A stretch of 64,000 nt of DNA from Artemia franciscana (lineage: Eukaryota > Arthropoda > Branchiopoda > Anostraca > Artemiidae): contig NC_088873.1 of assembly GCF_032884065.1 (NCBI RefSeq), positions 29,807,658 through 29,871,657 on the forward strand, written 5' to 3'. Numbering within the stretch: the stretch's first letter is position 1; each line of letters begins with the position of its first letter. The position numbers were made by a program, and so were the translations under genes. The notes beneath the pieces are model-generated. The model saw nothing but the letters and a program-made list of their open reading frames with translations. It searched no databases and was not told the DNA's origin. Below are positions 1 to 55,029 of the stretch, piece after piece.

Positions 1-2691
1 GCAATAAGAAACATATGACTGGACAAGACAGAAGAAAAGAAGTTTCAGGATAGATCCAGGAAATGTGTATCTAAGTTTTCGAATGATACCCGAACTCCGT
101 GAGACCTTCACCCTAATCATGGCTACATGGTTTCTGAATGAAAGGTTCTCATCAAGCAGGATACCAAGAAACCGGACCACCCTATTCTCTGGTCTACACA
201 TGGAGCCTTGTGACACCTGAAGGTGTGTAAGCTGAGGAAAAGCTACACCAATTCGAGAAAAAAATAAGAAAATGTGATTTACCAAACATTCAAGACCAAG
301 TAATTGGCATCAAACCATGACATAACTCTCTCAAATGATGCCACAAGTTTATACTTGATATCACATTCCGTTTTCCCAAAGGTCCCAAGAGTGGTATCAT
401 CAGTAAAAACAACAAGAAAATCTTCATTAGAAAAAATATTGGAACATGACTGAGCATCAGTCTGACCCAGCTTGCAACATGCCAGAGACCTGGTGTTTTT
501 TACAGCCGAAATCAGATCATTAACATAAATCAAAAATAAAATGGGACCAAGAACTGATCCCTGCGGGACGTCATAATATACTTCAGAAGGGTTCCGGAAA
601 AGCAGATCAATTGAAATAAGCCTACCAGAAAGATATGAATCAAACCAAGAATAAGCGTTTGATCTTATACCAATATGTGATAGTTTCCAAAGAAGAATCC
701 GATGAGTCAAGGAATCAAAAGCTTTACGAACATCCAAAAATGAAGCTGCCGGGATATGACCAGAATCTATTGCCGAATGAATGAACTTCGATAAAGCTGC
801 GCAAGCATGCTCCGTAGAGTGACTCGCTCAGAATCCAAACTGGAAATCATGCAAAAAATCCTTTTGCATCCAGAAAACTAAGAAGCCTGGATAGCATAGC
901 CTTCTCAAAAATTTTGCTGAAAACAGATAGGAGAGAAATTGGACTATAATTAGCAGGATCACTCCAAGAACCACCTTTATAGAGTACTATAACCTTAGCT
1001 CGCATGAGAGATTCAGGAAAAATACCTTTCTCGAAAGACAGATTGACGAGCTTAGTCAGTGGTGACAGAATAGCAGGCAGAATGGCACGGATAACCCTTG
1101 TAGGAATTTCGTCTGGTCCTGAAGAGGATGATCCTTTAAGAGCATTCACGATACGAGCTACCTCAAATTCAGAAACAGAATTCAAGACCATTGACTTCAA
1201 ACATGAGGGTCCAAGAAAGGCTCTGAAATCACAACGAAAAGTTGCAGAGCTTGTAGAGGAAGCAGTTACCTTTCCTATATTAGCAAAATAAGAGGTAAGC
1301 TCTAGCTGAACATCCACATCTCCTTGGACGGTTTTACCATCGATTTTCAGCATTGATGGAACTGAAGGCAGAGGTGGAGCAGGTCTAAGAACTGAATTAA
1401 TTAAATACCATGCCTTCCTTACATCCTTCCCACATTCAGAAAATTTCCTATGATAATACTGAGACTTTGCCTTCCGACACAGAGAATTAAATATATTCCT
1501 ATAGGCCTTGAATTGTTCGTGATGAACTAAAGATGGTGAAGCCTTACAAAGCTTCCACAAATAATTTTTCCTTTTCCAGCTTTTATGGAGACCTGGAGTC
1601 ATCCATGGATTCAGTGTTGCTATCCTTTTCGAGGTATGGGGCGCTGAACCCCACTTGTAAATTTCCAGGATTCCTTCTTTAACTAAATCATAAAAGGAAT
1701 CAAAAGACTGGTTAAAATCTGAATCAGAAACCAAACTACCCCATGGTACATAAGCCAGACGAGAATTAAGTAGACTAAGCTCAGTATCACCATAACGGAA
1801 AAATGGGAGATTAGATGGTGATGCTATACGCTGCGCTTGATCAGCACTGTTATATCGGGAAATAGCGGGAAAATGATCAGAAATATCACTAACCAGCACC
1901 AAATTATCTAAAACATCTAATGACGAAAAAATATTATCGATAAGAGACGCTTCTGTTTCTGTAACTTGGGTTGGTATACAAACTGAAGGTAGAGTTCCCG
2001 AAGAGAGCATCATTGACAAAAAATCAATAGTTGAAGCAGAATTTTGATCCAGCAGGTTGAGGTTAAAGTCACCCATAAGGATTAGTTCATAGGGATGTTT
2101 TTGGACTGAGTCCAAAACTTCTTCCAGAACTTTCAAAAATGAAGGAATAGATCCATTGGGGGACCTATAAACCAAACCCACAACTAAACACTTGCGCATT
2201 GATTTAATCTCAATAAATAGGGATTCAAAGATTCCTTCCTCATTTCTGCTCAAATCATTTTGGACATTATATGCAAGACGATCAGCAATATAAAGCATAA
2301 GGCCACCTCTCGCCATCTGTTTCCTATTTAGCCTCTCCATCTTATATCCTGGAATATCTAGAAGGATATCCTTTTTTGAATCCGGGAAAGTTTCACATAA
2401 TCCTATAACATCAGGAGTTCCATCACTAACGATCCGTTTCAGCTCATCAAAAGACGTGCAGAGTCCCTGAATGTTCAGATGAAACACAGAGAAAATATAA
2501 TCTCGTTTACAGGAGGCAGAACCATTTAATTGCGAAACATACTTACTTTTAAAAGCCGAATTAGAATCATTATTCATCTGATTTCTATTTCCAATTAAAT
2601 TATTAATAATATTTTCAATATCTAAAAGATTATTTTGTAAATCAAGTAAACGATCCCCCAAAGAGTTGATACCAGCCTGGCCACTACTCAT
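1..2691 (-). pseudogene. LINE ORF2: endonuclease and reverse transcriptase, broken
   Basis: ORF2 would nick the target DNA and prime reverse transcription of the LINE RNA. The ATG at 2691-2689 begins MSSGQAG. The endonuclease part shows VFHLNIQGL, LCET, GGLMLYI, VGLVYRSPN, LMGDFNLNLL, LIDNIF and SDHFPAI, the usual order for AP-type LINE endonucleases. The reverse transcriptase part shows FLDVRKAFDSL (motif A), PQGSVLGPILFLIYVND (motif B) and FTDDTTLG (motif C, catalytic DD kept), then WFDANYLVLN in the thumb. Three breaks are visible: a frame change in the A-run near 853-858 (plus strand), an in-frame TGA at 828-830 (GF-stop-ASH, where arginine is usual), and a frame change near 283-292. Coding-like sequence continues to position 1, so the C-terminus lies outside. 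Confidence 0.9.
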
Positions 2692-6079: not shown

Positions 6080-9000
6080 CTATCCATAAAATGGCCTTCC
6101 AAAACCACGGTAGCCATATCCACCACGATAACCATAACCACCAAATCCACGATATCCATAGCCTCTATATGGACGATATCCTTAAAAAGAAAAATTAATG
6201 AAACAGTTTTTAATCATTTTCTTAAAATAAGAGACTGACGACTGACTTTAGTCTTTTGACATAAATCAGAAGACTGAAGTATTGTCAAAGCAAAGTATAG
6301 CCTACGGAAAACAGTGGAATCGCTTTATTTTTCCATGACAATTTAAGATAAAATGAAATAAACTAGATATATTTTTATTTACTAAAAATTCATTATGAAT
6401 TCTGCTTATAAATGCCCGGTTAGATTAAATTGCTTTTCAGTGCAGGATTTTGTCATATGTCCATGCTTAATCCGTGTTTATTGGTGATTGTTCAGACGTT
6501 TGAAAATAATATATGGTTGTATAATTACTTGCAAAGCATCAGATATTAGTAGGAAAAGTTTTAATTTTCTAATTTCCAGCTCTTTACTTAATTTACGCAG
6601 GGTGTCGACAAAGTGTGGGTTCATACAAATTTTATTAATAATTAAATCAAAAAGTTAACAGGTTTTTTCAACTGAAATTAAGAAGCAACAATAAAATATA
6701 AAAAGAACAGAAATTATTCCATGTATAGAAAAGTAGTAGCCCCACTGAATTCCTCGCTCTTCATCCTGAAGTTTTCTAGGGCATTAAAAAAAAGTTTTTT
6801 TATTGATCTTATTAAATGGTCCTTGTTCTTCAGGAGTTGTTCTTAAGGAACTGGAGTGACAAATCAAAATTTAGGGTAGAGAGCAAGGTATTGAAAGGGG
6901 GGCATCCCCTCATATACGTAATAATTTCTGTTCGTTTTTTAGTTTCTATCCTGGTCCTTACTTTCAGTAAAAAAAACTTTTTTTTCAATTCTGATCATTT
7001 TTCAAGTAATGCTAGGATATTCAGCTCTCCTCCATGGATAATAGCATCTCCCTACGCAAAATACCTCCATAGAAATATCCTTCCACGTAACTCCTCCCCT
7101 CAAAAACCCTTTACAATTCTTGAGGAAAATTCCCACCGGACAATTATTGCAGTTGTTTTGATCTGAAAAATTAATTTTAGCACACTTTCATTTGAAAAAG
7201 TAATTTGCGATTATTTTTCAGATCATGCGGAAGTCTACCTTCGGAGAAACTTTTCCCAGCACCCCCCCCCCCCCCTCAGTGGTGAACTGTTTCTGCAGAT
7301 ACTTCCCCGGTGGAAGATTTCTAAAGTCGAAGATTCCCTATGGAGAATTTATTGAGAGGACAATAATTTTCCCCAAACAAATATATCATTTAGACAATTT
7401 CAACTCTATGAACGTTTCCCTGGGAGGGTTACCCTAAACTTATCCACATGTTAAACTGACTTGGTAAAGAGAAAGTAGGAAAAATACAAGAGCTTCGTAC
7501 AGGTTTCAGGCAAAAGTTTCAGGTAAGTTTATCCATCACAAACTTCTCTCACCACTCAAAAGTACCAAATCGATTCATTTTCTTTTGACTGATCCAGTAT
7601 ACGATCCGGTAAAAAAAAACAACATAAATAAATAGAGTATACAAATTTTTATGTACCCAAACTTCGTGGACACCCGGTGTTTTTTTATCAGTTGTACTAA
7701 TAATGTTGAATCAGTTCAGCAAAAATTTCATGTTTCTAGTTTTGACCGTTTTACGATCTAGTATTAACCAACAAATAAACCTACACACTTGATTTAAGCT
7801 TGAAACATTTCTTGTACTAAACCATTTTGTTATAAAAATAAAATTTTATTCATAAAATAAAAAAAGAAATAAAAAAAAGAAATCTGAATTTGTTAAAATG
7901 GTAACAAGTGTTTAATAGGTTGAAGATGTAATTTGAGTTCTCATTAAAATCAACTGAGGGCCAAGGTAAGCTAAAAAAGGGTTAAATGCCCAAGGCGAAG
8001 ATTCTTCTTGGCACCTGGATCATATCCCTTTAGCATTTGCAAGCTTGCCAGAGGGAAGGAGATTTTGTAATTCCTTCCAGGCTTAAGCTGTCGTATAAAG
8101 TCACTTCGGGCCGCGCCTTTTTTCGTCTTTTAATACTCCTTTGTATTTCGTGGTTGCAAAATTATCATACAAGTTTTGCTTATCCTTTTCTCTCCAAGCA
8201 ATGACACCTTGATTGCAATAATTTTTAATTCAATTGCAAATATGTTTCGAATAGAGGAGTAAGAGAACAAAAGCAAAATTATCATACAAGTTTTGCTTAT
8301 CCTTTTCAAACAGTTCGTGGTAACGAACTGTAGTAAGGAGCGATCCAGCTCAATAGTAACCAAAACTCTAAAAAATTGCATTTTGATATCAATAGCTACA
8401 GCAAAAGAATCGCATTTTAATGCTGATTTTAAATATATAAGTTTCATCAAGTTTAATCTTACCCATCAAAAGTTACGAGCCTGAGAAAATTTGCCTTATT
8501 TAGGAAAATAGGGGGGAACACCCTCTAAAATTCGTAGGATCTTAATGAAAATGACACCATTAGATTCAGCGTATCAGAGAACCGTACTGTAGAAGTTTCA
8601 AGCTCCTATCCACAAAAATGTGGAATTTTGTATTTTTTGCCAGAAGACAAATCACGGGTGTGTGTTTATATGTTTGTTTGTTTTTTTGTTTTTTTTTCCC
8701 AGGGGTCATCGTATCGACCAAGTGGTCCTAGAATCTCGCAAGAGGGCTCATTCTAACGCAAAGGAAAATTTCTAGTGCTCTTTTTAAGTGACCAAAAAAA
8801 TTGGAGGGCATCTAGGCCCCCTTCCACGCTCATTTTTTCCCAGAGTCAACGGATCAACATTTTGAGATAGTAATTTTGTTCAGCATAGTCGAAAACGATA
8901 ATAAATATGTCTTTGGGGATGACTTACTCCCCCACAATCCCTGGGGGAGGGGCTGCAAGTTACAAACTTTGACCAGTGTTTACATATGGTAATGGTTATT

Positions 9001-12000
9001 GGGAAGTGTACAGACGTTTTCAGGGGGATTTTATTTTGTTTGGGGGTGGGGCTGAGCAGAGGGGGCTATGTTGGAGGATCTTTCCTTGGAGGAATCTGTC
9101 ATGGGGGAAGAAAAATTCAATGAAAAGGGCGCAGGATTCTCTAGCATTACTATAAGAAAACAATGAAAAATAAACATGAAAACGTTTTTTCAAATGAAAG
9201 GATGAAATAGCATTGAAACTTAACACGAACAGAGATTATTACGCATATGAGGGGTTCTAAAAACATTTTAGCATAAAGAGCGAGGTATTTAGGAGGAGAT
9301 AAATACCTTGCTCTTTATGCTAAAGTATTTTTAGTAATTTCAACTATTTATTCTACGGCCTTCCTTATTCAGGGGTCATTCTTAAATAATCGGGACAAAA
9401 CTTACGATTTAGTGTAAAGAGCAAGGTATTAACGAGGGTACAAACCCCCTCGTATACATAATAAAAATATAAGGTTATGAAAGTCTGTTACGTAAGTTAA
9501 TTCTTAAGTTACGTATATTTTTTACTAATAAAAACGTTCGTTAAAAATTAAAAGTTCTAGTTGCCTTTTTAAGTAACCGAAAAATTGGAGGGCAACTAGG
9601 CATCCTTCTCCACCCCTTATTTCTCAAAATCGTTTGATCAAAACTAAGAGAAAGCCATTTAGCCAAAAAAAGAATTAATATACAACTTTCATTTTAATAA
9701 TTTATGTTTGGAGAGCCAAAATCAAACATGCATTAATTCAAAAACGTTCAGAAATTAAATAAGAAAAACTAGTTTTTTTAACTGAAAGTAAGGAGCGATA
9801 TTAAAACTTAAAACGAACAGAAATTACTCCGTATATGAAATGGGTTGTCCCCTCCGCAATGCCTCGCTCTTTACGCTAAAGCTTGACTTTTTGCCACAAT
9901 TCTACTTTTTAAAACAATTAAAAGCTTTAGCGTAAAGAGCGAGGGATTGCGGAGGGGACAACCCATTTAATATACGGAGTAATTTCTGTTCGTTTTAAGT
10001 TTTAATGTCGCTCCTTACTTTCAGCTAAAAAAATTAGTTTTTTTTATTTAATCTCTCCAAGCAATGACACCTTGATTGCAATAATTTTCAATTCAACTGC
10101 AAATATGTTTCGAATAGAGGAGTAAGAGAACAAAAGCAAAATTATCATACAAGTTTTGCTTATCCTTTTCTCTCCAAGCAATGACATCTTGATTGCAATA
10201 ATTTTTAATTCAACTGCAAATATGTTTCGAATAGAGGAGTAAGAGAACAGTAAGCCATATTGCTACTTATTGTCAAAAAAACTTATTTTTATTTTCTTTT
10301 TTTTAAATATGGAAATGTTAAAGATTCTGAAATTCAAACTCACCTATCAAATGTGTCAAAAATTCCCTTCAAAAGGTTTGTATTTTCTGCAGGAGCAAAA
10401 TTTAGCCAATAAGTTTGCTATAGCGATTTGAAAGTAGATATTTGTGCTAGTAGTTACAAAAACTCTAAGAAGTGCTATCTTGACAAAAATGAATCAACAG
10501 TTCATTAAGTAATTAAAAATCTAAAAATTGAAAGTTTGGCAACGATTTATACATCAAAAGGACTGAATTTTTATGCTGATTCTAAGCATAAATATTTATT
10601 AAAATATTCATAAGAAATCACTATAAAAGTTAATTATTAAAATTATTTAGTGTCACCCATAAAATCTTAAAATCCAGGGAAAATTTGCCTAACTTTCAAA
10701 AAAAGAAGGAAACAAACCCAAAAGTTGAAGCAATTTCGATGAAAAATATAATATTTGAATGAACATATGAGAGAAACTTGTTGTTAAGGCTTCTAGTCCC
10801 TATCTAAATAAATTTGAGTTTTACTGGGTTTTTTTCGCTAGCAGTTTAGTCAAACAGGTCATGGTAATGAACTGTAAGTAAGGAGCGACTCAGCTCAATA
10901 ACAACTAAAACTCTAAAAAAGGAACTTTCATGCCAACAGATATATTAAAAGAATCAGATTCTCTCGAAGTTTCATTAACTTTGGTGTTGCCTATGAAAGT
11001 TTAAGAGCCTGAGAAAATTTGCCAAATTTTCCAAAAAAGGAAGAGAAAACCCATAGAAGTCATAGAATCTTAATTAAAATAACACTATCAGATTCAGTAA
11101 ATCAGAGAACCCCGCTGTAGAGGTTTCAAGCTCCTATCTGCAAAAATGTTGAATTTTGTATTTTTTGCCAGGTGAAAGATCACAGATGCGTGTTTATTTG
11201 TTTATTCGTTGTTGTATTTTCCCCAAGGGGGGATTGTATCAACCCAGTGGTCCTAGAATATAATGAGAGGGTTCATTTGAGTGAAAATCAAAAGTTGTAG
11301 TGCTCTGTTTACGTGAAACACGGATTAGAGGACAATTAGGCCCACTCTGGTTTTTCCTCAAAATCGTCCAATTTAAATTTCTTGATAGCCATTTTGTTCA
11401 TCATAGTTTAAAAGCCCAACAACTCTATATAAATTGTCCTTCTCCACCCTCAACAGCCCCAGTAGAAAGGTCTTTAAGTTAAAAAATTGTATATTGACTA
11501 CACATAGTATTTGTTATTGGAAAGCATGCATACATTTTAAGGTGGGAAAACACATTTTCTGCTGTATTTTTTTCACCGGTGAAATCTCCATAGGGAGGGA
11601 GGTTCCAGGGGAGGAATTGGGTGAATCTACCAGAACTCATATACAAACTCATTTCACAAAATGTTCTTATTCTTATACAGCATGCTCAATTTTATGCATG
11701 GAGTTTTTAAGTGTATTTGTCAGGGATAAATTTTTAGAAATATTGAACTTTGTGGATAGTATATTCATAGGAAGGATATTTCCCCATAGAAATGGGGTCA
11801 GATTTCCTGGGTTTATTTAAAAAACGATCAGAAAAAAAAACAAAAAAAAACAAGTTTTTTGAACTGAAAGTGAAGAGCAACGTTAAAACTCAACACCTCA
11901 CTCTATACTCTAAATTTAATCTTTTAACTCTAAAAGAGTCAACCCCCCGCGAATATGCAGTAATTTATGTTCGTTTTAAGTTTAATATTGCACAATTCAC

Positions 12001-15000
12001 TCAGTTGGAAAAACTTGCTTTTTTATTATTTGATTACATAAAAAAAACTAGTTTTTTTAAAACTGAAAGTAAGGAGCGACATTAAAACTTAAAACGAACA
12101 GAAATTACTCTGTATATGAAATGGGTTGTCCCCTCCGCAGTCCCTCGCTCTTTACGCTAAAGTTTTTAATTGTTTTAAAAAGTAGAATTGTGGCAAAGAG
12201 TCAAACTTTAGCGTAAAGAGCGAGGGATTGCGGAGGGTACAACCCATTTCATATACGGAGTAATTTCTGTTCGTTTTAAGTTTTAATGTCGCTCCTTACT
12301 TTCAGTTAAAAAAACTAGTTTTTTTATTTAATTTCTGAACGTTTTTGAATTAATGCATGTTTGATTTTGGCTCTCCGCACATAAATTATTGAAATGAAAT
12401 TAGTATATTAATTTTTTTTTGGCTAAATGGCTTTCTTTTAGTTTTGATCAGACGATTTTGGGAAATAAGGGGTGGGGAAGGAGGCCTAGCTGCCCTCCAA
12501 TTTTTCGGTTACTTAAAAGAGCTACTAGAACTTTTAATTTTCAACGAACGTTTTTATTAGTAAAAAATATACGTAACTTAAGAATTAACTTAAGTAACAA
12601 ATTTTTATATTCTTATATTTTTATTATGTGTACGAGGGGGTTTGTAACCTCGTTAATACCTCGCTCTTTACACTAAATCGTAAGTTTTGACCCAATTCTT
12701 TAAGAATGACCCCTGAATCAAAAAGGCCGTAGAATCAATAGTTGAAATTACTAAAAATATTTTAGCATAAAGAGTGAGGTATTTATCTCCTCCTAAATAC
12801 CTCGCTCTTTATGCTAAAGTATTTTTAGAACCCCTCATATGCGTAATAATCTCTTTTCGTTTTAAATTTCAATGCTATTCCTTACTTTCATTTGAAAAAA
12901 CGTTTTCATGTTTATTTTTTTATTGTTTTTTTATAGTAATGCTAGAAAATCCTGCACCCTTTTCATTGAATTTTTCTTCCCCCATCACATATTCCTCACA
13001 GGAAAGATCCTTCCACAAAGCCCTCTCCCATCAACCCCAGCCCCCAAACCAAAAAATCCCCATGAAAACGTCTTTGCACTTCCCAATAACCATTACTATA
13101 TGTAATAAACACTGGTCAAAGTTTGTAACTTGCAGCCCCTCCTTCAGGGATTGTGGGGGAGTAAGTCTTTCCCAAAGATATAGTTATTATGGTTTTCGAC
13201 TATGTGGAACAAAATGGCTATCTTAAAATTTTAATCTGTTGACTTTTGGAAAAAATTAGCGTGGGAGGGGGCCTATTTGCCCTCTAATTTTTTTATCAAT
13301 TAAAAAGGGAACTAGAACTTTTCATTTCCGTAAGAATGAGACCTCTTGCGACACTCTAAGACCACCTGGTCGATACGATGACCCCTGGGGAAAAAAACAA
13401 CAAACAAACAAACAAATAAACACGCACCCGTGATTTGTCTTCTGGCAAAAAATATGAAATTCCACATTTTTTTAGATAGGAGCTTGAAATTTTTGCTATA
13501 GAGTTCTCTAATATGCCGAATGCGATGGTGTGATTTTCGTTAAGATTCTATTACTTTTAGGGGATGTTTCCCCCTTTTTTCCAAAATAGGGCAAATTTTC
13601 TCAGGTTCGTAACTTTTGATGACAAAGACTAAATTAATTGAAACTTATATATTCAGAATCAGCGTGAAAATTCGATTCTTTTGATGTATCCGAGTTTCGT
13701 TTTTTAGAGTTCCGTTTAGAGTTCCGTTTACTTTTTAGAGTTCCGTTTACTATTGAGCCGGGTCGCCCCGTACTAAGTTCTTTACAACGAACTGTTTGAA
13801 AAGAAAATAATTCGGTATTTCGGGGCTTCTGACATTATTACTCCTTTGCGGAAGTTAGGCTCAAAATTGAAAAAGGATTATATTTTTTCTCTGGGCCCCT
13901 TCCACCTCTTAGTTCGTTTATTTTCCCGTTAGTTTTTACCTGTTTTCGCTTTATAGTTGTGTTATCTCTTAGCAGTTCTTTCGTTAGTTGAGTTTTGGTT
14001 GTGGTATATATATTTTATTGCTCGTATAGTTGTGTTATTTTCAAATTATACTCCATAATAGAGAAGCTCCGAACAGCCAGCATTGTATATTAAGCTCTGA
14101 ATTTGACGTTTTTGTCTAACGTGACCAGATTCGTCCTGCGCCCTTTTCATTGACTTTTTTCCCCCATGGCATATTTCTCCAAGGAAAGATACTCTCACAT
14201 AGCCCCCTCCCTCAACCCTACCCCCAAAACCAAAAAAATCCCCCTGAAAACGTCTGTACACTTCCCAATAACCATTATTATATGTAAACACTATTTGAAG
14301 TTTGTAACTTGCAGCCCCTCCCCCAGGGACTGTGGGGGAGTAAGTCATCCCCAAATACATAGTTATTATGATTTTCGACTATGTTGAACAGAATGGCTAT
14401 CTCAAAATTTTGATCCGTTGACTTTGGGAAAAAATGAGCGTGGGAGGGGGCCTAGATGCCTTCCAATTTTTTTGGTCACTTAAAAAGGGTACTAGAACTT
14501 TTCATTTCCGTTAGAATGAGCCCTTTTGCGACATTCTAGGACCATTTGGTCGATACGATGACCCCTGGGAAAAAAAAAAAAAAAAAAAAAAAAACAAATA
14601 AACACGCACTCGTGATTTGTCTTCTGGCAAAAAATGCAAAATTCCACTTTTTTGTAGATAGGAGCTTGAAACTTCTACAGTAGGGTTCTCTGATACGCTG
14701 AATCTGATGGTGTCATTTTCGTTAAGATCCTACGACTTTTAGGGGGTGTTTCCTCCCTATTTTCATAAATAAGGCAAAATTTCTCAGGCTCGTAACTTTT
14801 TATGGCTAAGACTAAACTTGATGAAACTATATATTTAAAATCAGTATTAAAATGCGATTCTTATGATGTAGCTATTGATATCAAAATTCAATTTTTTAGA
14901 GTTTTAGTTACTATTGAGCCGGATCGCTCCTTACTACAGTTGGTTACCACGAACTGTTTGATTACACGATAAGTCACAGTGAGAGCGCACAGAATCTAAA

Positions 15001-18000: not shown

Positions 18001-21000
18001 ATCCCGACCAGATCGTTTGACATTGGGGGGAGTTGGAGGGGGAAGTCATGGAAAACACTTGGAGTGTAGGAATCGGGATGAAGCTTGGTGGATAGAATAA
18101 ACAAATTTCCTTGATACGTGATTGACAGAATCGTACTGGATTTCCTCTTTTTGGGGGAGTTGGGGGTAGGGGTTCAGTGATTTGGCGAGTTTGGTGCTTC
18201 TGGACGTGCTAGGACGATGAAAATTGATAGGCGTGTCAGGGAGCTGCACAATTTGACTTGATAAAGTCGTTTTCCCAGATTCGACCATCTGGGGGGCTAA
18301 AGGGAGAGGAAAAATTAGAAAAAATTAGGTATTTATAACTTACGAGTGGTTGATCGGATCTTAATGAATTTTGATATTTAGAAGGACATCGTGACTCAGA
18401 GCTCTTATTTTAAATCCTGACCGGCATTAAGCCTCTTATTTTCCTTTTTAAATCAATCTATTGATTCATAGAATTTTGTTAGAGCTCATACCCTATGATC
18501 TCTTGGCTCTTAGCTCTTGTTTTGTTATTTTTTTTTCTTTTTTTCCAGGCCTAGCGGGTTACCAGATAGAGAGAAGTTTAAGAGCTCATTCAAAAGCTAT
18601 TTATCCTATCTACGGGATTCTTATGAATTCTGCCATCTTCATTTGCCATATGGCACCAAAAATTACACTTTTGGGTCATTTATCAAGGGTAGGGGTCGCG
18701 GGGTACCAGAACATCGTACAAAGATTTTTAATAGCTCATATAAAAGATAGTTCTCATATCTACATTCTTCTTCTAAATTTTTTCATTTGCAGGTTCCAAA
18801 TGACACTAAAAACGGCACTTTTTTCCCATTTCTCAAGTGAAAAAAGCTAGGGCTAGTGGGGTAGCGGAACTTTAAGAGTAATGTTTAATGGCTCATTTGA
18901 AATGCATTGCTCATATCTAGATTATTTTAATCGATTATGCCATCCGTATTTGTGATATAACACTGAAAACAACACTTTTGGTGCCACTTCTTAAGTGAAA
19001 AAGCTCTGAAGTACAAAACGGGTACCCTTGTAATAGTTATGTTTCAATACCGTTAACTAAAGGTTTACAAGAACCCCTCCTGAACTGGTTTCTTGGGGCA
19101 ATTTGTAATATACTCTCTCAAACACCAAACACAAGAAGAATAATAGAGAATTTTTTTAAGACAGTGGGAAACAAATTAGAATGAATATTTCGGCCCTATG
19201 TCCAAGGGCCAATACAAATAAGAAAAAACAACCTACAAGAGGGTAAAATCAATAAAACTAAAATGAACTGTTTTTCAAAAAAGTCCCAGGATCCTTACCT
19301 CAGCGAAGTTCAACCAGGACTGATAACTAAATTGTTACAGAAACGAGGCAATTCAATGAAATGAAAGAAAATGATTTAAAAACAGGTTTTTAATGCAAGT
19401 CTAGCTTTTTTCGCTGCTGATCTTATAGGTCAGGTTCTGTGTTAATATCTATTGTTTTTTTTTTTTATATTTCGTAAGGTCATTTTTAATTAAATTTGTG
19501 TATAAAGCATTCAGTAGATACTCTCCTAAATCCCTATTTAAGGAAATATTATTGTTAATCTTAAGTCTGATTTCAATTGCTTCTCGAACTACTTACTTTA
19601 TGCCTAGATCATTGCTAATAATGGCGGATTCTTCAAAAAGTATTTTGTAGCTTGGATTTTTGAAAACATGGCTACTTAAAGCAGAATCAAAAGAAACAGA
19701 AGTAGTATTAGAATTCAGAGTTTTGGTGATATCATCTTTATGTTGTTGTGGGCGTTTCTCGAAATTCTGGTGGGTTCTCCCTACATAGAGTTTGCCACAG
19801 TCGCATGGTATTTGATAGACTCCTCTTTGGCGAGTAACTGGAGTCTTATCTTTACCAGAATTTAGGAGATTTAAGATTTTCAAATTATTGATAAACACAA
19901 CATACAGATTATTTTGTGTGCATACTTTTTTAAGATTTCTAGTGATTTTTGGGATATTTGGGAGGTAAATTATGTTTTGGGGCTTATCGGGATTTTCAAA
20001 TGGTAAATTATTGTTGATTTTATGGGAGTGTCTTTTCATCCTACGGTTAATTGTATTATTAATAAGTAAAAGAGGATACCCATTTTCAAAAAGTATGTCC
20101 CTGATAAAGTCTAGTTCAGCTGTGATGTATGAATCAGAACAAATATTCAGGGCACGATCTACGAGAGATATTACGACGCCTCTTTTAACTTGTGGGGGGT
20201 GATTCAAAATGTAAATATCTATTGTTTTGTGTTGGTTTTCTGTAAATAGTAAAATTGAGTTCATCTAAGTTACGAATAATTAGAACATCTAGGAATGAGA
20301 TTTTATTTGAAATTTCAATTTCTAAGATAAACTGTAAATTCCTATCATATGTAGTAAGGTGATCTAAAAAAAACCCTAAGTTCATTTTCCCTATAGTTCC
20401 AAAGTGAAATTACATCATCCATGTAACGTTCCCAAAATATATGTTTAAAAAAATATGAATTTAATGCCCAATTTTCAATATGCTCTACATAAATATTCGC
20501 CAGTAACCCAGAAAGAGGCGCACCCATGGGTAAAACATTTATTTGTTGGTAGAAAGAATTACGGAATTGCATATACATTGAATACTTGTTACAAAGTTTA
20601 ACCAAGGGCATTAAAACGTCGCAATCTAATCCTGTTGCTGAAACTTCTATTAAGTCATAATTTTCATTAATTTTATTTTCTAATAATTTCTCGGATTCTG
20701 CTACATTAATATTTGTATACATAAACACAACGTCAAAGCTACTGATAATTGTATTTTCTTAAATATTTACGTTTTTGAGTTTTTCAACTAAATCGACCGA
20801 ATTACATATATAAGATTTTTGAGAAAAAAGCAAAGGTTTGAAGGCTGTACATAACCATTTTCCAATTTTGGAGGCGGGGGCTTTCGTACAAGCTACAATT
20901 GGCCTTAAAGGAATGCCCTCCTTATGTAATTTTGGTAGACCATAAAACTTTGGACAAAAGCTGCCTCGGGGGAAAAATTTATTATATAATTGTATAGTAA

Positions 21001-23992
21001 TTTTACCATTTTGTTTTAGATCTTTTAATTCTTTTATAATTTTGTTAGCAAACTGATCAGTATGGTCGTGGGTTATGTTTTGTATGTAGTTTTGTCATTT
21101 AGATGTGCATAAATTTTTGTGTCGTAATCTTTCGTATCCATGACAACCAAAGAATTGCCTTTATCTGCTTTAGTCAAACAGTTCGTGGTAACGAACTGTA
21201 GTAAGGAGCGACCCGGCTCAATAGTAACCAAAACTCTAAAAAATGGAATTTTGATACCAATAGCTACATCAAAAGAATCGCATTTCAATGCTGATTTTAA
21301 TATATAAGTTTCATCAAGTTTAGTCTTACCCATCGAAAGTTACGAGCCTAGGAAAATTTGCCTTATTTTAGAAAATAGGGGGAAACACCTACTAAAAGTC
21401 ATAGAATCTTAACGAAAATCACACCATCAGATTCAGCGTATCAGAGAATCATACTGTAGAAGTTTCAAGCTCCTATCTACAAAAACGTGGAATTTTGTAT
21501 TTTTTTGCCAGAAGGCAGATCACGGATGCGTGTTTATTTGTTCTTTTGTTTGTTTTTTTTGTTTTTTGTTTTCCTGGGATGATCGTATCGACCCAGTGGT
21601 CCTAGAATGTTGTGAGAGGGCTCATTCTAACGGAAATGAAAAGTTCTAGTGCCCTTTTTAAGTGATCAAAAAAATTGGAGGGCACCTAGGCCCCCTCCCA
21701 CGCTAATTGTTTTCCCAAAGTCAACGAATCCAAATTCTGAGATAGCCATTTTATTCAGCGTAGTCTAAAAACCTTATAAATATGTTTTTGGGGACGACTT
21801 ACTCCCCCAACGTAACCCCCCGTGTGAGGGGTTACAAGTTACAAACTTTAACCAGTGCTTACATATAGTAATGGCTATTGGGAAGTGTACAGACGCTTTC
21901 AGAAGGATTTTTGGTTGAGGGGAGGGGTTGAGAAGAGGGGGATATGCTGGGAGAACTTTACTTGGAGGAATTTGTCATGGGGGAAGAAATTTTTCATGTA
22001 GGGAGCGCAGGATTTTCTAGCATTATTTAAAAGAAAAGCAATGAAAAAATAAATATGAAAAAGTTTTTTCAACTGGAAGTAAGGAGCAGCATTAAGACTT
22101 TAATTGCAACTATTTTTTCTATGGCTTTTGTGATTCGGGGGTTATTCTCAATGAATTGGGACAAAATTTAAGCTTTTGTGTAAAGAGCGAGGTACTGACG
22201 ATGGGTTGAACCCCTCATGTATGTAATAGAAACATGAGAATACGAAAGTTCGTTACGTAAGCTAATTTATAAGTTACGTAAAACTTTCGTAAAAAATTAA
22301 AAATTCTAGTTCCCTTTTTAAGTAACCAAAAAATCGGAGGGCAACTGGGCTTCCTCCCCCGCTCCTTTTTTCTCAAAATCATTCAATCAAAACTCTGAGA
22401 AAGCCATTTAGCCAAAAAAATAAATATACAAATTTCGTTTTAATTATTCCTCTGCGGAGAGCCAAAATCAAAACATGCATTGATTCAAAAACATTCAGAA
22501 ATTAAATTAAAAAAACAAGTTTTTTTAACTGAAAGTAAGGAGCGATATTAAAACTTAAAACGAAAGAGCGGGGCGTTGACGAGGAAGCATCCCCTTTCAT
22601 ATACGAAGTAATTTCTGTTCGTTTTAAGTTTTAATGTCGCTCCTTACTTTCAGTTAAAAAAACTTGTTTTTTTTATTTAATTATAATAATGGACGGACCT
22701 TGCGGAGATTGGATAGAATTCTTAGGTCACGTAAATTATCTGGTTTTATATTGGCGGGAGGATTAGCCTTTTTTTTAGTATTGTAAAGTGTATCAATAAG
22801 ACAAGCCCTAACTTCGTTTAGGTTGGAAATAGATGAATAAAATTTGTGCCAAGACGACTCTAGAGAGGAAATCAAATCTGCCACAGGAGCTTGTTTTGGA
22901 AGAAAAGAGAATTTTGGACCTTTTTCAAGAGTTTGAATTTCCAATGGTTCAAGCGTTCTAGAGGACAAGTTAATCGATGTAACTTAGTGTCTAGAGAGAT
23001 TTTAAGATTCAATAATTACTGCCGTAAAAAATTCAAACCGTAAAAATTTTTTCATTTAGGCATTTGTAATAAACATTTAATTAGAGCACCCTTATCTAAA
23101 TTAGTGTCTAGAGAGATTTTAAGATAAAATAATTACTGCCGTAAAAAATTCAAACCGTAAGAAAATTTCATTTAGGCATTTGTAATAAACATTTAATTAG
23201 AGCACCCTTATATCTAACTTAGTGTCTAGAGAGATTTTAAGATTCAATAATTACTGCCGTAAAAAATTCAAACCGTAAAAAATTTTTCATTTAGGCATTT
23301 GTAATAAACATTTAATTAGAGCACCCTTATATCTAACTTAGTGTCTAGAGAGATTTTAAGATTCAATACTACTGTTGCTGCACAAAAATTTCCCCTGAAA
23401 AAGCTCAGGTTGTGAGGTTTAGGAACACTGACGTTCTATATAGAGGTTTCAGTCAACTGTTTTGTCCTGCACCGGATTAACGACAATTCTTGATTACTAG
23501 GGTCCATGCATCGGTCCTGCCGTATGCTGCTACATTGTGGTTCAAACTGTGGGTCCCATGTTTCCAATCAAACCTGCTGCACTTCCACTGGGTCCACTTT
23601 GAAATAGAAAACAAGTCCGTATTAAACAAAGTTCGTTACGTAAGCTAATTTATTAGTTACGTATACCTTTTACTAATAAAAACATTCGTAAAAAATTAAA
23701 AGTTCTAGTTGCCTTTTTAAGTAACCAAAAAATCGGAGGGCAACTAGGCTTCCCCCTCCCGCTCCTTTTTTATCTCAAAATCATTCGATCAAAACTATGA
23801 GTGAGAAACTTCTTGAGCTAAATTGTGTGTATCAGATTTACTAAATTTATTTCAGGATATATTGCTTAAAATTTACAATGAAATATCTACTCTTAGAAGC
23901 AGTGAGATAAACTGAAACCTGTATAAAAAAGTCTTACCTACTGAAACCACAAAAACAATAAAGAAGGTGAAAAACACTGAAAATTTCTTCAT
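6080..23992 (-). CDS. Locus 1: small secreted glycine/tyrosine-rich protein, three exons
   Basis: Join of exon 1 (23992-23938), exon 2 (15592-15530) and exon 3 (6180-6080), 219 nt, 72 residues plus stop. Exon 1 encodes a signal peptide, MKKFSVFFTFFIVFVVSV. Exon 2 encodes AYAQDLLADDDEDAANRLFF, giving a likely cleavage after AYA and an acidic linker. Exon 3 encodes a basic glycine/tyrosine-rich tail with GYR, GYGYRGF and a terminal GRPFYG. Both introns are phase 1, with GT-AG borders (GTAAGA donors; CTTTCAG and TTTTTAAG acceptors), so the frame is kept throughout. A TATA box and TCAGT initiator precede it, and AATAAA follows. The introns are 8,345 and 9,349 bp and full of transposons. Function is unknown. 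Similar composition occurs in secreted antimicrobial and in structural (cuticle-like) peptides of invertebrates; I cannot choose between them. Confidence 0.85.
6640..7180 (-). repeat. Old, diverged family A fragment
   Basis: Diverged family A sequence in minus orientation. It shows TTTTTTCAACTGAAATTAAG, then a GAGCAAGGTATT block, TACGTAATAATTTCTGTTCG, TCCTTACTTTCAG and the GTAATGCTAGGATATTC segment. It is much less like the others than they are to each other, so it is probably an early insertion. It lies just beyond the outer intron boundary region of locus 1 exon 3. Confidence 0.6.
7181..8155. other. Intron sequence of locus 1, no gene seen
   Basis: A+T-rich sequence inside intron 2 of locus 1, with a C-run at about 7261-7275. 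Short open frames here have no recognisable content. From about 7965 to 8150 a GAAGATTCTTCTTGGCACC segment looks like another dispersed repeat, but no second copy was recognised in the window. Confidence 0.45.
8157..10252 (+). repeat. 117-bp tandem repeat, three units, middle one interrupted
   Basis: A unit beginning AAAATTATCATACAAG and ending GAGTAAGAGAACAAAAGC starts at about 8157, 8274 and 10138. The second unit is split at 8306/10053 by a family A element, and the intact units give its empty-site sequence. The units are nearly identical, so the array is young or homogenised. Function unknown. Confidence 0.85.
8307..10052 (+). mobile_element. Family A, complete copy in a tandem array
   Basis: A complete 1,746-bp copy. 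It starts C-AAACAG with the 20-nt hairpin CAGTTCGTGGTAACGAACTG, followed by the subterminal motif AGTAAGGAGCGA. An inner palindrome lies at about 9262-9335 around TTTAGCATAAAGAGCGAGG. The 3' palindrome spans about 9760-10052, arms of about 135 bp. The element ends ATTTAAT. Flanks read CTTTT and CTCTCC, and intact array units read CTTTTCTCTCC, so no target duplication of 2 bp or more is present. It encodes no convincing protein. Confidence 0.9.
10400..10850 (+). repeat. Old, diverged family A 5' fragment
   Basis: Recognisable but strongly diverged 5' region of family A in plus orientation: TAGTTACAAAAACTCTAAG, TATGCTGATTCTAAG, GGGAAAATTTGCCTAAC and TTCTAGTCCCTATCTAAA occur in the family order. 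A further copy begins directly after it at 10851. Confidence 0.6.
10851..12032 (+). repeat. Family A, older diverged copy
   Basis: Starts CAAACAGGTCATGGTAATGA (a decayed 5' hairpin) and follows the family order to a decayed 3' palindrome ending near 12032. The middle is shortened, and most blocks differ more from consensus than in copies such as 8307-10052. It lies tail to tail with the next copy. Confidence 0.7.
12033..14960 (-). mobile_element. Composite element: family A, passenger, truncated family A
   Basis: Three joined parts, all in minus orientation: a full-length family A copy (12033-13798), a passenger of about 330 bp that is not family A (13799-14131), and a truncated family A copy (14132-14960) holding only the 5' part and ending at its 5' hairpin. 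The same order recurs at 35969-38151. Read in element direction, the unit begins at the 5' end of the truncated copy and finishes at the 3' end of the complete one. Confidence 0.8.
13799..14131 (-). repeat. Passenger segment of the composite, copy 1
   Basis: About 330 bp bounded on both sides by family A sequence. It is nearly identical to 37012-37340 and was seen nowhere else in the window. The end next to the truncated copy can be read on the minus strand as RQKRQIQSLIYNAGCSELL, which resembles coding sequence but is too short to place. The rest looks non-coding. Confidence 0.75.
15142..15364. repeat. 223-bp inverted repeat with hammerhead-like core motifs
   Basis: Two arms of about 99 bp (15142-15240 and 15266-15364), roughly 90% complementary, around a 25-bp centre. 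Each arm carries CTGATGA, a stem pair GGACAC/GTGTCC and GAAA, in the order of the conserved core of a hammerhead ribozyme. One base separates CTGATGA from the stem, and I could not find a matching stem III with its cleavage triplet, so activity is doubtful. It lies in intron 2 of locus 1, about 165 bp from exon 2. Confidence 0.6.
15593..16735. other. Intron 1 of locus 1, proximal part, no gene seen
   Basis: A+T-rich intron sequence between exon 2 and the satellite array. A short direct duplication of TACAATTAAAAATAGGAA-like sequence lies at about 15700-15810. The 79-codon open frame at 16307-16546 has no recognisable domain and was not accepted. Confidence 0.5.
16736..18432 (+). repeat. Satellite array, about 293-bp units
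   Basis: About five and a half units marked by GATGAAACTTGGTGG at about 16770, 17067, 17357, 17642 (diverged) and 18076. Each also has a GGATCTCAATGAAATTTGAT block and a G-rich block near GTTGGGGG. One unit around 17880-18000 lacks its first half. Copies differ by substitutions and by the length of G-runs, so the array is moderately old. The last unit continues into a GGACGTGCTAGGACGATG segment not present in the others. Confidence 0.85.
18440..19015 (+). repeat. Degenerate tandem array, 165-190-bp units
   Basis: Three diverged units share the order GGGGTACCAGAAC-like, AATAGCTCATATAAAAG-like, CATATCTACATTCTT-like and CACTTTTGGGTCATTTATCA-like blocks, beginning near 18545, 18700 and 18860. 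No coding potential is convincing: the open frames run across unit borders. Confidence 0.65.
19593..20728 (-). pseudogene. Penelope-like RT core and GIY-YIG nuclease, broken
   Basis: This holds the best preserved protein parts of the element: the palm with GAPLSGLLANIYVEHIENWA and YMDDV (catalytic aspartates present), the downstream KISFLDVLI and YRKPT motifs, and a terminal GIY-YIG module with GVYQIP and KLYVG. In the family the nuclease cuts target DNA and the reverse transcriptase copies the RNA from the nick. The parts lie in more than one frame. Confidence 0.85.
21175..22681 (+). mobile_element. Family A copy inside the Penelope-like element
   Basis: Starts CAAACAGTTCGTGG at 21175 and ends ATTTAAT at 22681. 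The inner palindrome and most of the left arm of the 3' palindrome are reduced; the right arm with GGCGTTGACGAGGAAGC is kept. It splits the Penelope-like reading region, so it inserted later than that element. Flanks show a T on both sides and no longer duplication. Confidence 0.9.
22980..23367 (-). repeat. 119-bp tandem repeat upstream of the Penelope-like ORF
   Basis: Three full units and a partial one, each starting near TTAGTGTCTAGAGAGATTTT at 22983, 23102, 23220 and 23339. Each contains ATTACTGCCGTAAAAAATTC and CATTTAGGCATTTGTAATAA. The array abuts the 5' end of the Penelope-like coding part, so it may be its leader region. Units are nearly identical. Confidence 0.85.
23628..23812 (+). 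repeat. Family A internal fragment
   Basis: An isolated piece of the second block of family A: CGTTACGTAAGCTAATTTAT, AAAGTTCTAGTTGCCTTTTT, ATCGGAGGGCAACTAGGCTT and CATTCGATCAAAACTATGAG. Neither element end is present. It lies 125 bp from exon 1 of locus 1, in its first intron. Confidence 0.8.
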
Positions 23993-25669: not shown

Positions 25670-26976
25670 CAAACAGTTCGTGGTAACGAACTGTAGTAAG
25701 GAGCGACCCGGCTCAGTAGTAACCAAAACTCTAAAAAACGGAATTTTGATACAAATAGTTACATCAAAAGAATCGCATTTTAATGCTGATTTTAAATATA
25801 TAAGTTTCATCAAGTTTAATATTACCTATCAAAAGTTACGATCCTGAGAAAATTTGCCCTATTCTAGAAAATAGGGGGGAAAAACCCCCTAAACGTCATA
25901 GAATCTTCACGAAAATCACATCATCAGATTCAGTGTATCAGAGAACTCTATTGTACAAGTTCCAAGCTCCTATCTACAAAAATGTGGAATTTTGTATTTT
26001 TTGCCAGAAGACAAATCACGGATGCGTGTTTATTTGTTTTTTTTTTCCCCAGGGGTGATCGTATCGACCCAGTTGTCCTAAAATTTTGGAAGAGGGCTCA
26101 TTCGAAAGGAAATGAGAAGTTCTAGTGCCCTTTTTAAGTGACCAAAAAATTGGAGGGCATCTAGGCCCCCTCCCACGCTCATTGTTTTCCAAAAGTCGTT
26201 GGATCAACATTCTGAGATAGCCATTTTATTCAAGATAGTCGAAAAACCTAGTAAATATGTCTTTGGGGACGACTTACTCTCCCACAGTCCCCGTGGGAGG
26301 GGCTGCAAGTTACAAACTTTGACCAGTGTTTGCATATAGTAATGGTTATTGGGAAGTGTACAGACGTTTTCAGGGGGATTTTTGGTTGGGAGGAGGGGTT
26401 GAGAAGAGGGGGTTATGTGGGGTAAACTTTCTATGGAGGATTTTGTCATGAGGGAAGAAGATTTCCGTGAAGGGGGCGCAGCATTTTTTTGCATTATTTA
26501 AAAAAACAATGAAAAATGAATATGAAAAAGTTTTTTCAACCAAAAGTAAGTAGTAGCATTAAAACTTAAAACGAACAGAAAATATTAAGCATACAAGGGG
26601 TTCACCTCTTCCTAATACCTCATTCTTTACGCTAAAGTATTTTTAGTAATTTCAGCTATTTATTCTACGGCTTTTGTGATTCAGGGGACAAAATTTAAGC
26701 TTTAGTGTAAAGAACGAGGTATTGACGAGTGGGCGAACCCTCTCATATACGTAATAAAAACATACGAATATAGAAGTTTGTTACGTAAGCTTTTACTTAT
26801 TTAAAGTTTTACTGTTTAAAATGTAGAGTTGAGAGAAAGAGTCAAACTTTAGCGTAAAGAGCAGGGCGTTGAAGAGGGAACAGCCCCTTTCATATACGGG
26901 GTAATTTCTGTTCGTTTTAAGTTTTGATGTCGCTCCTTACTTTCAGTTTAAAAAAACTTGTTTTTTTTTATTTAAT
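25670..26976 (+). mobile_element. Family A copy with intact ends
   Basis: Starts CAAACAGTTCGTGG at 25670 and ends ATTTAAT at 26976. It is shorter than full length: the second middle block is missing and the left arm of the 3' palindrome is mostly lost. Flanking bases are T on the left, C on the right, with no duplication visible. Confidence 0.9.
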
Positions 26977-27247: not shown

Positions 27248-28984
27248 ATTAAATAAAAAAAAACTAATTTTTTTAGCTGAAAGTAAGGAGCGACATTAAA
27301 ACTTAAGACGAACAGAAATTACTCCGTATATGAAACGAGTTGTCCCCTGCGCAATCCCTCGCTCTTTACGCTAAAGCTTTTAATTGTTTTAAAAAGTAGA
27401 ATTGTGGCAAAGAGTCAAACTTTAGCGTAAAGAGTGAGGGATTGCGCAGGGGACAACTCATTTCATATACGGAGTAATTTCTGTTCGTTTTAAGTTTTAA
27501 TGTCGCTCCTTACTTTCAGCTAAAAAAATTAGTTTTTTTTTATTTAATTTCTGAACATTTTTGAATTAATGCATGTTTGGTTTTGGCTCTCCGCACATAA
27601 ATTATTAAAAGGAAATTTGTATATTAATTCTTTTTTTGGCTAAATGGCTTTCTCTTAGTTTTCATCAGACGATATTGACAAATAAGGGCTGGAGAAGGAG
27701 GCCTAGTTGCCCTCCAATTTTTCGATTACTTAAAAAGGCAACTAGAACTTTTAATTTTTAACGAACGTTTTTATTAGTAAAAAATATACGTAACTTAAGA
27801 ATTAACTTACGTAACAAACTTTCATAACCTTATATTTTTATTATGTAAACGAGTGGGTTTGTACCCTCGTTAATACCTCGCTCTTTACACTAAATCCTAA
27901 GTTTTGTCCCAATTCTTTAAGAATGACCCCTGAATCAGAAAGGCCGTAGAATAAATAGTTGAAATTACTAAAAATACTTTAGCATAAAGAGCAAGGTATT
28001 TATCTCCTCCTAAATACCTCGCTCTTTATGCTAAAGTATTTTTAGAACCCCTCATATGCGTAATAATCTCTGTTCGTTTTAAGTTTCAATGCTACTTCTT
28101 CCTTGCATTTGAAAAAACGTTTTCATGCTTATTTTTCATTGTTTTCTGATAGTAATGCTAGAGAATCCTGCGCCCTTGTCATTGAATTTTTCTTCCCCCA
28201 TGGCAGATTCCTCCAAGGAAAGATCCTCCAACATAGCCCCCTCTCCTCAGCCCCAAACCCCAAACAAAATAAAATCCCCCTGAAAACGTCTGTACGCTTC
28301 CCAATAACCATTACTATATGTAAACACTGGTCAAAGTTTGTAACTTGCAGCCCCTCCCCCAGGGATTGTGGGGGAGTAAATCATCCCCAAAGACATAGTT
28401 ATTATGGTTTTCGACTATGTTGAACAAAATGGCTATCTCAAAATTTTGATCCGTTGACTTTGGGAAAAAAATGAGCGTGGGAGGGGGCCTAGATGGCCTC
28501 CAATTTTTTTGGTCACTTAAAAAGGGCACTAGAACTTTTCATTTCCGTTAGAATGAGCCCTCTTGCTACATTCTAGGACTACTTGGTCGATACGATGACC
28601 CCTGGGAAAAAAAAAAAAAAAATAAACACGCACCCGTGATTTGTCTTCTGGCAAAAAATACAAAATTCCACATTTTTGTAGATAGGAGCTAGAAACTTCT
28701 ACAGTAGAGTTGTCTGATACGCTGAATCTGATGGTGTCATTTTCGTTAAGATCCTACGACTTTTAGGGGGTGTTTCCCCCTATTTTCCTAAATAAGGCAA
28801 ATTTTCTCAGGCTCGTAACTTTTGATGGGTAAGACTAAACTTGATGAAACTTATATATTTAAAATCAGCATTAAAATGCGATTCTTTTAATGTAGCTATT
28901 GATATCAAAATTCAATTTTTTAGAGTCTTGGTTACTATTGAGCCGGGTCGCTCCTTACTACAGTTCGTTACCACGAACTGTTTG
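27248..28984 (-). mobile_element. Family A, complete copy
   Basis: A complete 1,737-bp copy in minus orientation, from ATTAAATAAAA at 27248 to CTGTTTG at 28984. Both palindromes are intact. The 3' palindrome arms both carry the variant CCCTGCGCAATCC / GGATTGCGCAGGG, which differs from the usual CCCTCCGCAATCC, so the two arms changed together. Confidence 0.9.
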
Positions 28985-34918: not shown

Positions 34919-35968
34919 TAACTGTAAGTAAGGAGCGACATTAAAACTTCAAATGAACAGAAATTACTCCGTATATGAAATGGGTTGTCCCGTCCTCAAC
35001 GCCTCGCTCTTTACACTAAAGTTTGACTCTTTACCACAATTCTACTTTTCAAAACAATTAAAAGCTTTAGCGTAAAGAGCGAGGCGTTGAGGAGGGGACA
35101 ACCCATTTTATATACGGAGTAATTTCTGGTCGTTTTAAGTTTTAATGTCGCTCCTTACTTACAGTTAAAAAAACTAGTAATTTTATTTAATTTCTGAACG
35201 TTTTTGAATTAATGCATGTTTGGTTTTGGCTCTCCACACATAAATTATTAAAATAAAATTTGCATATTAATTCCTTTTTTGGCTAAATGGCTTTCTCTTA
35301 GTTTTGACCAGACGATTTTGAGAAATAAAGGGTGGGGAAGGAGGCCTAGTTGCCCTCCAATTTTTCGGTTACATAAAAAGGCAACTAAAACTTTTAATTT
35401 TTAACGAACGTTTCTATTAGTAAAAAATATACGTAACTTAAGAATTAACTTACGTAATAAACTTTTATATTTTTATATTTTTATTATGTATATACGGGCG
35501 TTTGTACCCTCGTTAATGAATCGCTCTTTACACTAAATCGTAAATTTTGTCTCAATTCTTTAAGAATGACCCCTGAATCAGAAAGGCCGTAGAGTAAATA
35601 GTTGAAATTACTAAAAATACTTTAGCATAAATAGCGAGGTATTTATCTCCTCCTAAATACATCGCTCTTTATGCTAAAGTATTTTTATAACCCCTCATAT
35701 GGGTAATAATCTCTGTTCGTTTTAAGTTTCAATGGTACTCCTTACATTCAATTGAAAAAACTTTTTCATGTTTATTTTTTCATTGTTTTTTTTTATAGTA
35801 GTTTTAGAAAATCCTGAGCCCTTTTGATTGAATTTGTCTTCCTCCATGACATATTTCTCCAAGGAAAAATCCTCCCACATAGCCCCCTCCCCTAAGCCCC
35901 ACCCCCAAAACCAAAAAAAAATCCCCCTGAAAACGTCTGTACACTTCGCAATAACCATTATTATATGT
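34919..35968 (-). repeat. Family A copy, 3' half, split by a later insertion
   Basis: Minus orientation, from just inside the 3' end (AACTGTAAGTAAGGAGCGAC) to ATTATATGT at 35968. The family continues with AAACACTGGTC, which resumes at 38152. The two halves together form one element interrupted by the composite at 35969-38151. The outermost bases of the 3' end are lost. Confidence 0.85.
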
Positions 35969-38151: not shown

Positions 38152-38822
38152 AAACACTGGTCTAAGTTTGTAACTTGCAGCCCCTCCCCCGGGGACTCTG
38201 GGGGAGTAAGTAATTCCCAAAGACATAGTTATTATGGTTTTTGACTATGTGGAACAAAATGGCTATCTCAAAATTTTGATCCGTTGTCTTTGGAGAAAAA
38301 TGAGCGTGGGAGGGGGCCTAGGTGCCCTCCAATTTTTTTGGTCACTTAAAAAGGGCACTAGAACTTTTCATTTCCATTAGAATGGACCCTCTTGCGACAT
38401 TCTAGGACCACTTGGTCGATACGATGACCCCTGGGAGAATGAAAAAAACAAACAAACAAATAAACACGCACCCGTGATTTGTCTTCTGGCAAAAAATACG
38501 AAATTCCACATTTTTGTAGATAAGAGCTTGAAATTTTTGCTACAGGGTTCTATGATACGCCGAATGCGATGGTGTGATTTTCGTTAAGATTCTATGGCTT
38601 TTACGGGGTGTTTCCCCCTATTTTCCAAAATAAGGCAAATTTTCTCAGGCTCGTTACTTTTGATGACAAAGACTAAATTTGATGAAACTTATATATATAA
38701 AATCAGCATGAAAATCCGATTCTTTTGATGTATATTTTAGCATCAAAATTCCGTTCTTTAGAGTTTCGTTTACTGTTGCGCCGGGTCGCTCCTTACTACA
38801 GTTCGTTACCACGAACTGTTTG
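38152..38822 (-). repeat. Family A copy, 5' half, split by a later insertion
   Basis: Continues the copy at 34919-35968 after the nested composite. It runs from AAACACTGGTCTAAG to the 5' hairpin CACGAACTGTTTG at 38822. Confidence 0.85.

Positions 38823-46629: not shown

Positions 46630-55029
<8,400 letters not shown>

Follow-up and report, generated by a model that had tools for sequence, protein, structure and literature searches.

Family A of Artemia franciscana, a probable non-autonomous rolling-circle element with a Helitron2-like layout

A repeated element, here called family A, was analysed in a 64,000-nucleotide stretch of the Artemia franciscana genome (NC_088873.1, forward-strand positions 29,807,658–29,871,657; hereafter the window), of which it made up 27,487 bases (42.9%). 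Family A is very probably a non-autonomous rolling-circle element, and its layout is close to that of Helitron2. The initial annotation of the window had pointed to a non-autonomous rolling-circle element or, alternatively, to a recombinase-mobilised one. The former was supported by the absence of a regular target-site duplication (TSD), an asymmetric target, head-to-tail arrays with exact end-to-end joints and a recurring composite with two 5' ends, all of which were directly observed, as was the anatomy of the element.

The host assembly searched comprised 1,270,528,402 bases in 6,468 contigs (1.27 Gb). It contained the exact 24-base 5' end of family A 28,043 times (14,014 + 14,029) and the reversed control 0 times. 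The published assembly of this species has 1,270,721,445 bp in 6,486 scaffolds (21 chromosomes) and 34.7% GC, with 8.81% Helitrons (PMC11492255; this and the other reports are cited from excerpts). With at least 28,043 exact 5' ends, transposition can be traced in the copies of a single family, which provides empty sites, head-to-tail arrays and composites of the read-through type. Many of the end counts were made on the window copies plus 48 genomic loci (L001–L048); L-numbers denote loci cut from the host assembly, and W-numbers denote sites in the window.

The element at 8307–10052 starts with CAAACAG (8-bp stem, GGTA loop) and finishes with ...GTCGCTCCTTACTTTCAG...TATTTAAT. It is flanked by 117-bp tandem units at 8150–8306 and 10053–10250, one of which it splits. 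Its parts are the following.

8307–10052, plus strand: full-length family A element of 1,746 bp that splits a 117-bp tandem unit; 8306–10051 in the Helitron register TC...TTTAA
8311–8330, plus strand: 5' hairpin CAGTTCGT-GGTA-ACGAACTG with an 8-bp stem, which also folds computationally
8333–8344, plus strand: 5' subterminal repeat, here GTAAGGAGCGAT
10007–10018, minus strand: 3' subterminal repeat, inverted
9754–10052, plus strand: 3' palindrome with arms of about 130 bp and a loop of about 45 nt (orientation II), ending in TATTTAA before T

The termini, the 5' hairpin, the 3' palindrome and the inverted subterminal word near both ends, all proposed in the initial annotation, were present. The subterminal word GTAAGGAGCGAC was matched 71 times with up to two mismatches, against 1.56 expected in shuffles. 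The inverted repeat near both ends was imperfect and about 20 bp long, with 12 bp exact. A folding program folded both the 8-bp 5' stem and the long 3' palindrome, giving a hairpin at each end. The 5' repeat lay at about position 20–38 and overlapped the hairpin only in AACTG, and the 3' repeat ended 25–33 nt from the element end (counted by eye on the consensus). The two ends matched only subterminally; their outermost 20–25 bp or so were different sequences, and there was no terminal inverted repeat.

T preceded CAAACAG in 82 of 83 5' ends, and in 73 of 74 when the nine inner ends of composites were left out; both figures count one end twice because L041 and L042 overlap. The statement that every copy with intact ends has this T thus held with one exception. 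T also followed all 33 3' ends (ends chosen by TATTTAA alone). Two registers can be read from these ends. In one, CAAACAG...TTTAAT stands after T. In the other, T is counted as element, and TCAAACAG...TTTAA stands between A (54), T (15), G (4) or another base (1; n = 74) and T. Placing T inside the element turns the first form into TC...TTTAA inserted at A^T, and so brings together classical Helitron ends and a layout like that of Helitron2. The ends had been said not to match the TC...CTRR pattern; this stood for the 3' TTAA, which is one base from CTRR, but the 5'-TC fits if T belongs to the element.

For the empty sites, joined flanks were compared with all sequence in the sample. A spanning match was found for 13 sites, six of them usable; the seven others best matched their own locus or a weak repeat (one of them, 14960, showed zero net change against a 73% match). 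Four of the six usable sites showed no duplication, one showed 2 bp and one was unreadable. At W8307, the joined flanks were 98.1% identical to the intact 117-bp unit over 160 bp, with no net change in two of two paralogues, in agreement with the earlier reconstruction of this site (8306/10053). At W38151 (38151 to 35969, minus strand), they corresponded to intact family A sequence, and 68 of 70 paralogues showed no net change. The rejoining proposed for this second site (35968/38152) was thus confirmed, but the insertion there was not a simple copy, being 2.2 kb long and carrying two 5' ends. Zero net change was also found at L028 (40 of 41 paralogues) and L009 (two of two, identity about 73%). 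A single T stood at W8307 and W38151, the best two of the empty sites, and in filled sites CAAACAG...TATTTAA was bordered by T at both ends.

Counted over 48 rows, direct duplications measured 0 bp in 23, 1 bp in 16, 2 bp in 6 and 3 bp in 3, against 24.0, 17.8, 4.2 and 1.7 with shuffled flanks, and were thus at chance level. The 48 rows represented 44 distinct 3' ends; L040, L044, 32306/32661 and 38822/38151 entered twice with different 5' ends, and a few partners were unsure. Together with the four empty sites, this bore out the claim that family A inserts without a TSD, with L031 (AT) as the exception. A consistent duplication of 2 bp or more had been named beforehand as counter-evidence; none was regular in the 48 rows or in the usable empty sites.

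The target was read from 40 copies with a 3' end AAT, one row being taken for each 3' end. On the left side, A (29), T (9) or G (2) at −2 was followed by T at −1 in all 40; on the right side, A was found in 25 of 40 at +7 and in 31 of 40 at +8 (chi-square 35.8), with A or G at +9 to +11. This count retained the doubtful rows L011 and L012, in which the right flank is family A interior, and L040, L044, 32306 and 38822, in which the 5' end may not be the partner. The pattern had no mirror image on the left, and such asymmetry is as expected for a single-strand nuclease.

In the recurring composite, 335 bp of non-element DNA separated element positions 1–830 from a second element. The two window copies and their parts are listed here.

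35969–38151, minus strand: composite with two 5' ends and one 3' end, within the family A copy 38822–34919
37007–37339, minus strand: non-element segment in this composite (about 335 bp)
34919–38822, minus strand: older family A copy, interrupted by the composite near element position 675
12033–14960, minus strand: second composite, with its outer 5' end at 14960 and inner 5' end at 13798
13799–14133, minus strand: 335-bp segment of the second composite, 95.2% identical to the segment at 37007–37339

Eight composites were found: two in the window (14960–12033 and 38151–35969) and six in the 48 loci (L002, L014, L020, L026, L035, and L041). All eight shared the truncation point and the 335-bp segment, which in the loci was 93–97% identical to 13799–14133. 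Both outer ends were seen in six of the eight, with different flanks, while the 3' end of the L002 and L014 composites was beyond the locus or not found. The composite at 38151 was the one with an empty site. Copying that started at the first 5' end and went on to the next 3' end would produce such a unit, and a similar read-through origin has been proposed for FoHeli chimaeras (PMC5148889). The inner 5' hairpin was mismatched in all eight composites; the outer one was exact in seven and had one mismatch at 14960. The inner damage was dropped as proof that the hairpin is needed, because six of the eight composites had been picked by an exact outer end and the outer end at 14960 was itself mismatched. 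Inside family A, the 3' arm was present in a third copy and a further direct repeat was observed (consensus positions 863–992, 454–571, and 1206–1321), so that family A itself looks like an old composite.

Exact head-to-tail joints, in which ATTTAAT is directly followed by CAAACAGTTCGTGG, occurred 395 times (185 + 210) in the host assembly. All WWWWAAT words before CAAACAGTTCGTGG amounted to 1,873, and the other 15 words averaged 98.5, about a quarter of the ATTTAAT count. Among the 100 joint places listed, nine lay close together (within 2 kb), forming four clusters that each kept to a single strand. The one array that was read, L084, contained three exact joints, in which a 3' end was followed immediately by a 5' end at 658, 1168, or 1683; two of its units were about 512 bp long and were derivatives with a single 3' arm.

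The mechanism, including the enzyme, the strand involved and the sequence of events, is inferred as follows. A RepHel nuclease supplied in trans would nick at the 5' end, and one strand would be displaced up to the 3' terminator, which would consist of the subterminal repeat, the hairpin and TTTAA. The displaced strand would then be joined into the target between A (or T) and T; no staggered cut would be made and hence no duplication would arise. Where the 3' signal was missing, copying would run on to the next one and give the two-5'-end unit with its 335 bp of passenger DNA. Copying past the end more than once would give the head-to-tail arrays.

A PF14214 profile search of the host assembly returned 7,435 candidates, the best 150 of which scored E 1e-57 to 2e-55. 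Thirty RepHel loci were cut out, and among the matches listed L049 matched at least 27 others at the DNA level. There was no family A match in these 30 loci or in three longer regions (L079–L081). By eye, L079 and L080 (both ends) and L081 (3' end) looked like canonical Helitrons, with 5' TCTATATATA and a 3' hairpin followed by CTAG before T. The search for a Rep/helicase element that the initial annotation had suggested yielded, among the best 150 of the 7,435 candidates, a RepHel family whose ends, as read in L079–L081, differ from those of family A. The abundant canonical RepHel was set aside as the partner on account of its other ends and the lack of a DNA match; action in trans is still conceivable. 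With the canonical protein as tblastn query, no RepHel traces were found in the window and L001–L048 at E 0.1, a search that a distant RepHel could escape. OTU and RPA domains, considered as flags of a Helentron partner, were set aside with two matches and one match in the host assembly. The canonical Helitrons of L079–L081 (C4, C13, and C6) were very abundant and nearly identical, with open RepHel frames of 1,663–1,688 aa and a repeat of about 69 bp in the N-terminal coding region. In L079, fragments of this Helitron were arranged head-to-tail immediately upstream of it.

Several observations weigh against a rolling-circle origin. No RepHel gene with family A ends was found among the best 150 of the 7,435 candidates; a second RepHel lineage may be hidden beyond these or may be absent. 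The 3' consensus end is TTTAA before T and not CTRR, and the short A/T hairpin adjoining it was seen by eye, the folding program having preferred another structure for the final 62 nt. Two compensated changes stood against 23 uncompensated ones in the 5' hairpin stems of 79 5' ends, and compensatory change was therefore rejected as support for this hairpin. L031 had AT on both sides and a single AT in 68 of 77 paralogues, giving a 2-bp duplication (the copy lies at 1721–2048 of the locus), and L030, in a poly-T stretch, was mixed and unreadable. In addition, some joints may have arisen by insertion of one copy at the terminal T of another.

One alternative is a cut-and-paste DDE element, namely a miniature inverted-repeat transposable element (MITE) that makes a 1-bp T duplication or integrates with unusual precision. 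The single T on both sides may be such a duplication, from which it cannot be told apart, and a DDE enzyme acting on a single 5' end and a single 3' end could likewise move a composite. However, the targets of DDE dimers are generally symmetric, whereas that of family A is asymmetric. The outermost 20–25 bp of the ends lack the matching terminal inverted repeats of a DDE MITE, the fixed TSD of 2 bp or more is absent, and longer duplications are at chance level. This origin is highly improbable. Single-strand transposition by a Y1 enzyme (IS200/IS605-like), or insertion by a tyrosine or serine recombinase (Crypton, IS607), is slightly less so but still unlikely: it would account for the hairpins at both ends, the short left target with its fixed T and the lack of a regular duplication. 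However, family A shows exact-joint tandem arrays and a read-through composite, which are not typical of Y1 or recombinase systems. Moreover, subterminal inverted repeats combined with hairpins at both ends are a trait of Helitron2 (PMC3627910).

Among known systems, Helitron2, described by Bao and Jurka in 2013 (PMC3627910) and including FoHeli1/2 (PMC5148889), was among the closest in layout. Family A shares with it the hairpin at both ends, the inverted repeat near both with the 3' one just inside the hairpin, the 5' T, the usual lack of a TSD, insertion after T-rich or TNAT words, chimaeras with two 5' termini, and joined ends (PMC3627910, PMC5148889). The 3' asymmetric terminal inverted repeat (ATIR) of Helitron2, about 20–30 bp from the end and just upstream of the hairpin, has its counterpart in family A. 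In contrast, the 5' ATIR of Helitron2 lies 0–2 bp from the 5' end within the hairpin, whereas the family A repeat starts near position 20. Family A further differs in its mostly A^T target, its 3' TTTAA and its extra 3' palindrome of about 300 bp. Family A probably works like Helitron2; with one defining feature at odds and no partner gene seen among the best 150 of the 7,435 candidates, its membership is unproven. The kind of element is known; the long concerted palindrome, the place of the 5' repeat and the target are new.

Family A resembles Helentron, HINE and DINE-1 elements in being non-coding and of high copy number, with subterminal inverted repeats, a 3' palindrome and no TSD (PMC4067079; oyster Cg_HINE, PMC7492417). 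The Helentron-like nature proposed earlier held only in part, and strict Helentron membership was not supported. In place of the TT target, T^T was found in 15 of 74 ends (A^T 54, G^T 4, other 1). The repeat is present but not at the position of the Helentron/HINE subterminal inverted repeats, which are about 11–15 bp long and 2–4 nt from the 5' end. RPA is found in mite elements, whereas no multi-copy RPA was seen in this host (one match, with two for OTU), and the palindrome arms of mite HINEs are 5–10 bp as opposed to about 130 bp. Canonical Helitrons (Helitron1) share with family A the 5'-TC (T before C in 73 of 74) and A^T (54 of 74) when T is counted as element, as well as a 3' palindrome. 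They differ in CTRR instead of TTAA, and family A has a 5' hairpin and inverted repeats; the ends of the canonical Helitron of the host genome also differ from its own. Foldback elements resemble family A in their long self-complementary DNA; however, family A has a long palindrome at one end only and no regular TSD.

In 43 palindromes, the two arms within one copy were on average 95.6% identical, whereas between copies the same arm was 89.0% and the opposite arm 88.8% identical. In 33 aligned copies, 97.2% of cells were paired over 92 pairs, and 32 of the 92 pairs carried changes on both sides, against a shuffled mean of 15.2 and 4–7 in slid controls; the structure was derived from the consensus of the same sequences and is thereby favoured over the slid controls. 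Among 44 distinct 3' ends, the 3' loop had one orientation in 25 and the other in 13, with six undecided, and a tree built from 31 interiors required at least two changes of orientation, one of them inside the composite group. A flip/flop in every round was rejected, as orientation was inherited by clade (two changes in 31 copies, shuffled mean about 9.5). The 5' loop was inverted in 129 matches (66 + 63) in the host assembly against the 28,043 exact ends; this inversion would need four separate substitutions, which makes substitution an unlikely source.

These comparisons suggest that the arms appear to evolve in concert, being copied onto each other, and that the loops appear to invert at times. 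Arm-to-arm copying would keep the arms alike, probably in a single-stranded or folded state. Alternatively, selection for the hairpin might keep the arms complementary without such copying, and the high pairing and double-sided changes in the 33 copies are what speak for it. This is possible but less likely, in view of the scatter of the double changes across the stem of about 90 bp and of the tree, on which the loop underwent at least two inversions, events that require recombination or a template switch. When arm distance was compared with twice the end branch, the slope and the correlation were both 0.47 (30 copies); this dating does not distinguish arms that start out perfect from arms converted in place.

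A more speculative and rather doubtful idea is that the 3' palindrome has a function in the replication cycle, in which the displaced strand folds into a hairpin of about 130 bp and one arm templates the other. If true, each new lineage would receive matching arms and occasionally an inverted loop, and rolling-circle transposition would be joined with hairpin-templated renewal of the element end. Such renewal is known for parvovirus termini; to our knowledge it is not known for Helitrons, and we know of no described Helitron with concerted arms and inverted 3'-palindrome loops. The 3' palindromes of Helitron-type elements are short where the excerpts describe them (PMC4067079, PMC5148889, PMC3627910, PMC7492417, PMC6544945, PMC4344730).

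The exact family A terminus had 0 matches in viral contigs and 0 in prokaryote genome contigs, and its 3'-arm word 0 in viral contigs, in sets from which near host relatives were possibly left out. An Rfam search gave 0 matches. A text search with sequence words of family A found no paper, a weak indication that the element is undescribed so far.

Seven further copies with both ends present were found in the window.

21175–22681, plus strand: family A copy
25670–26976, plus strand: family A copy
27248–28984, minus strand: family A copy
48682–50291, minus strand: family A copy
52841–54770, plus strand: family A copy with a 189-bp internal duplication near the 5' end
58618–60168, plus strand: family A copy
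60384–62093, plus strand: family A copy

At position 1501 of L001, a family A copy was inserted just behind the 5'-hairpin loop of another copy. The window also contained jockey-like non-LTR retrotransposon frames at 847–2784 and 279–737 (both minus strand), the best protein match of the former being 79% identical. At 19593–20728 (minus strand), frames resembled, by eye only, a Penelope-like element with a reverse transcriptase and a GIY-YIG-like stretch.

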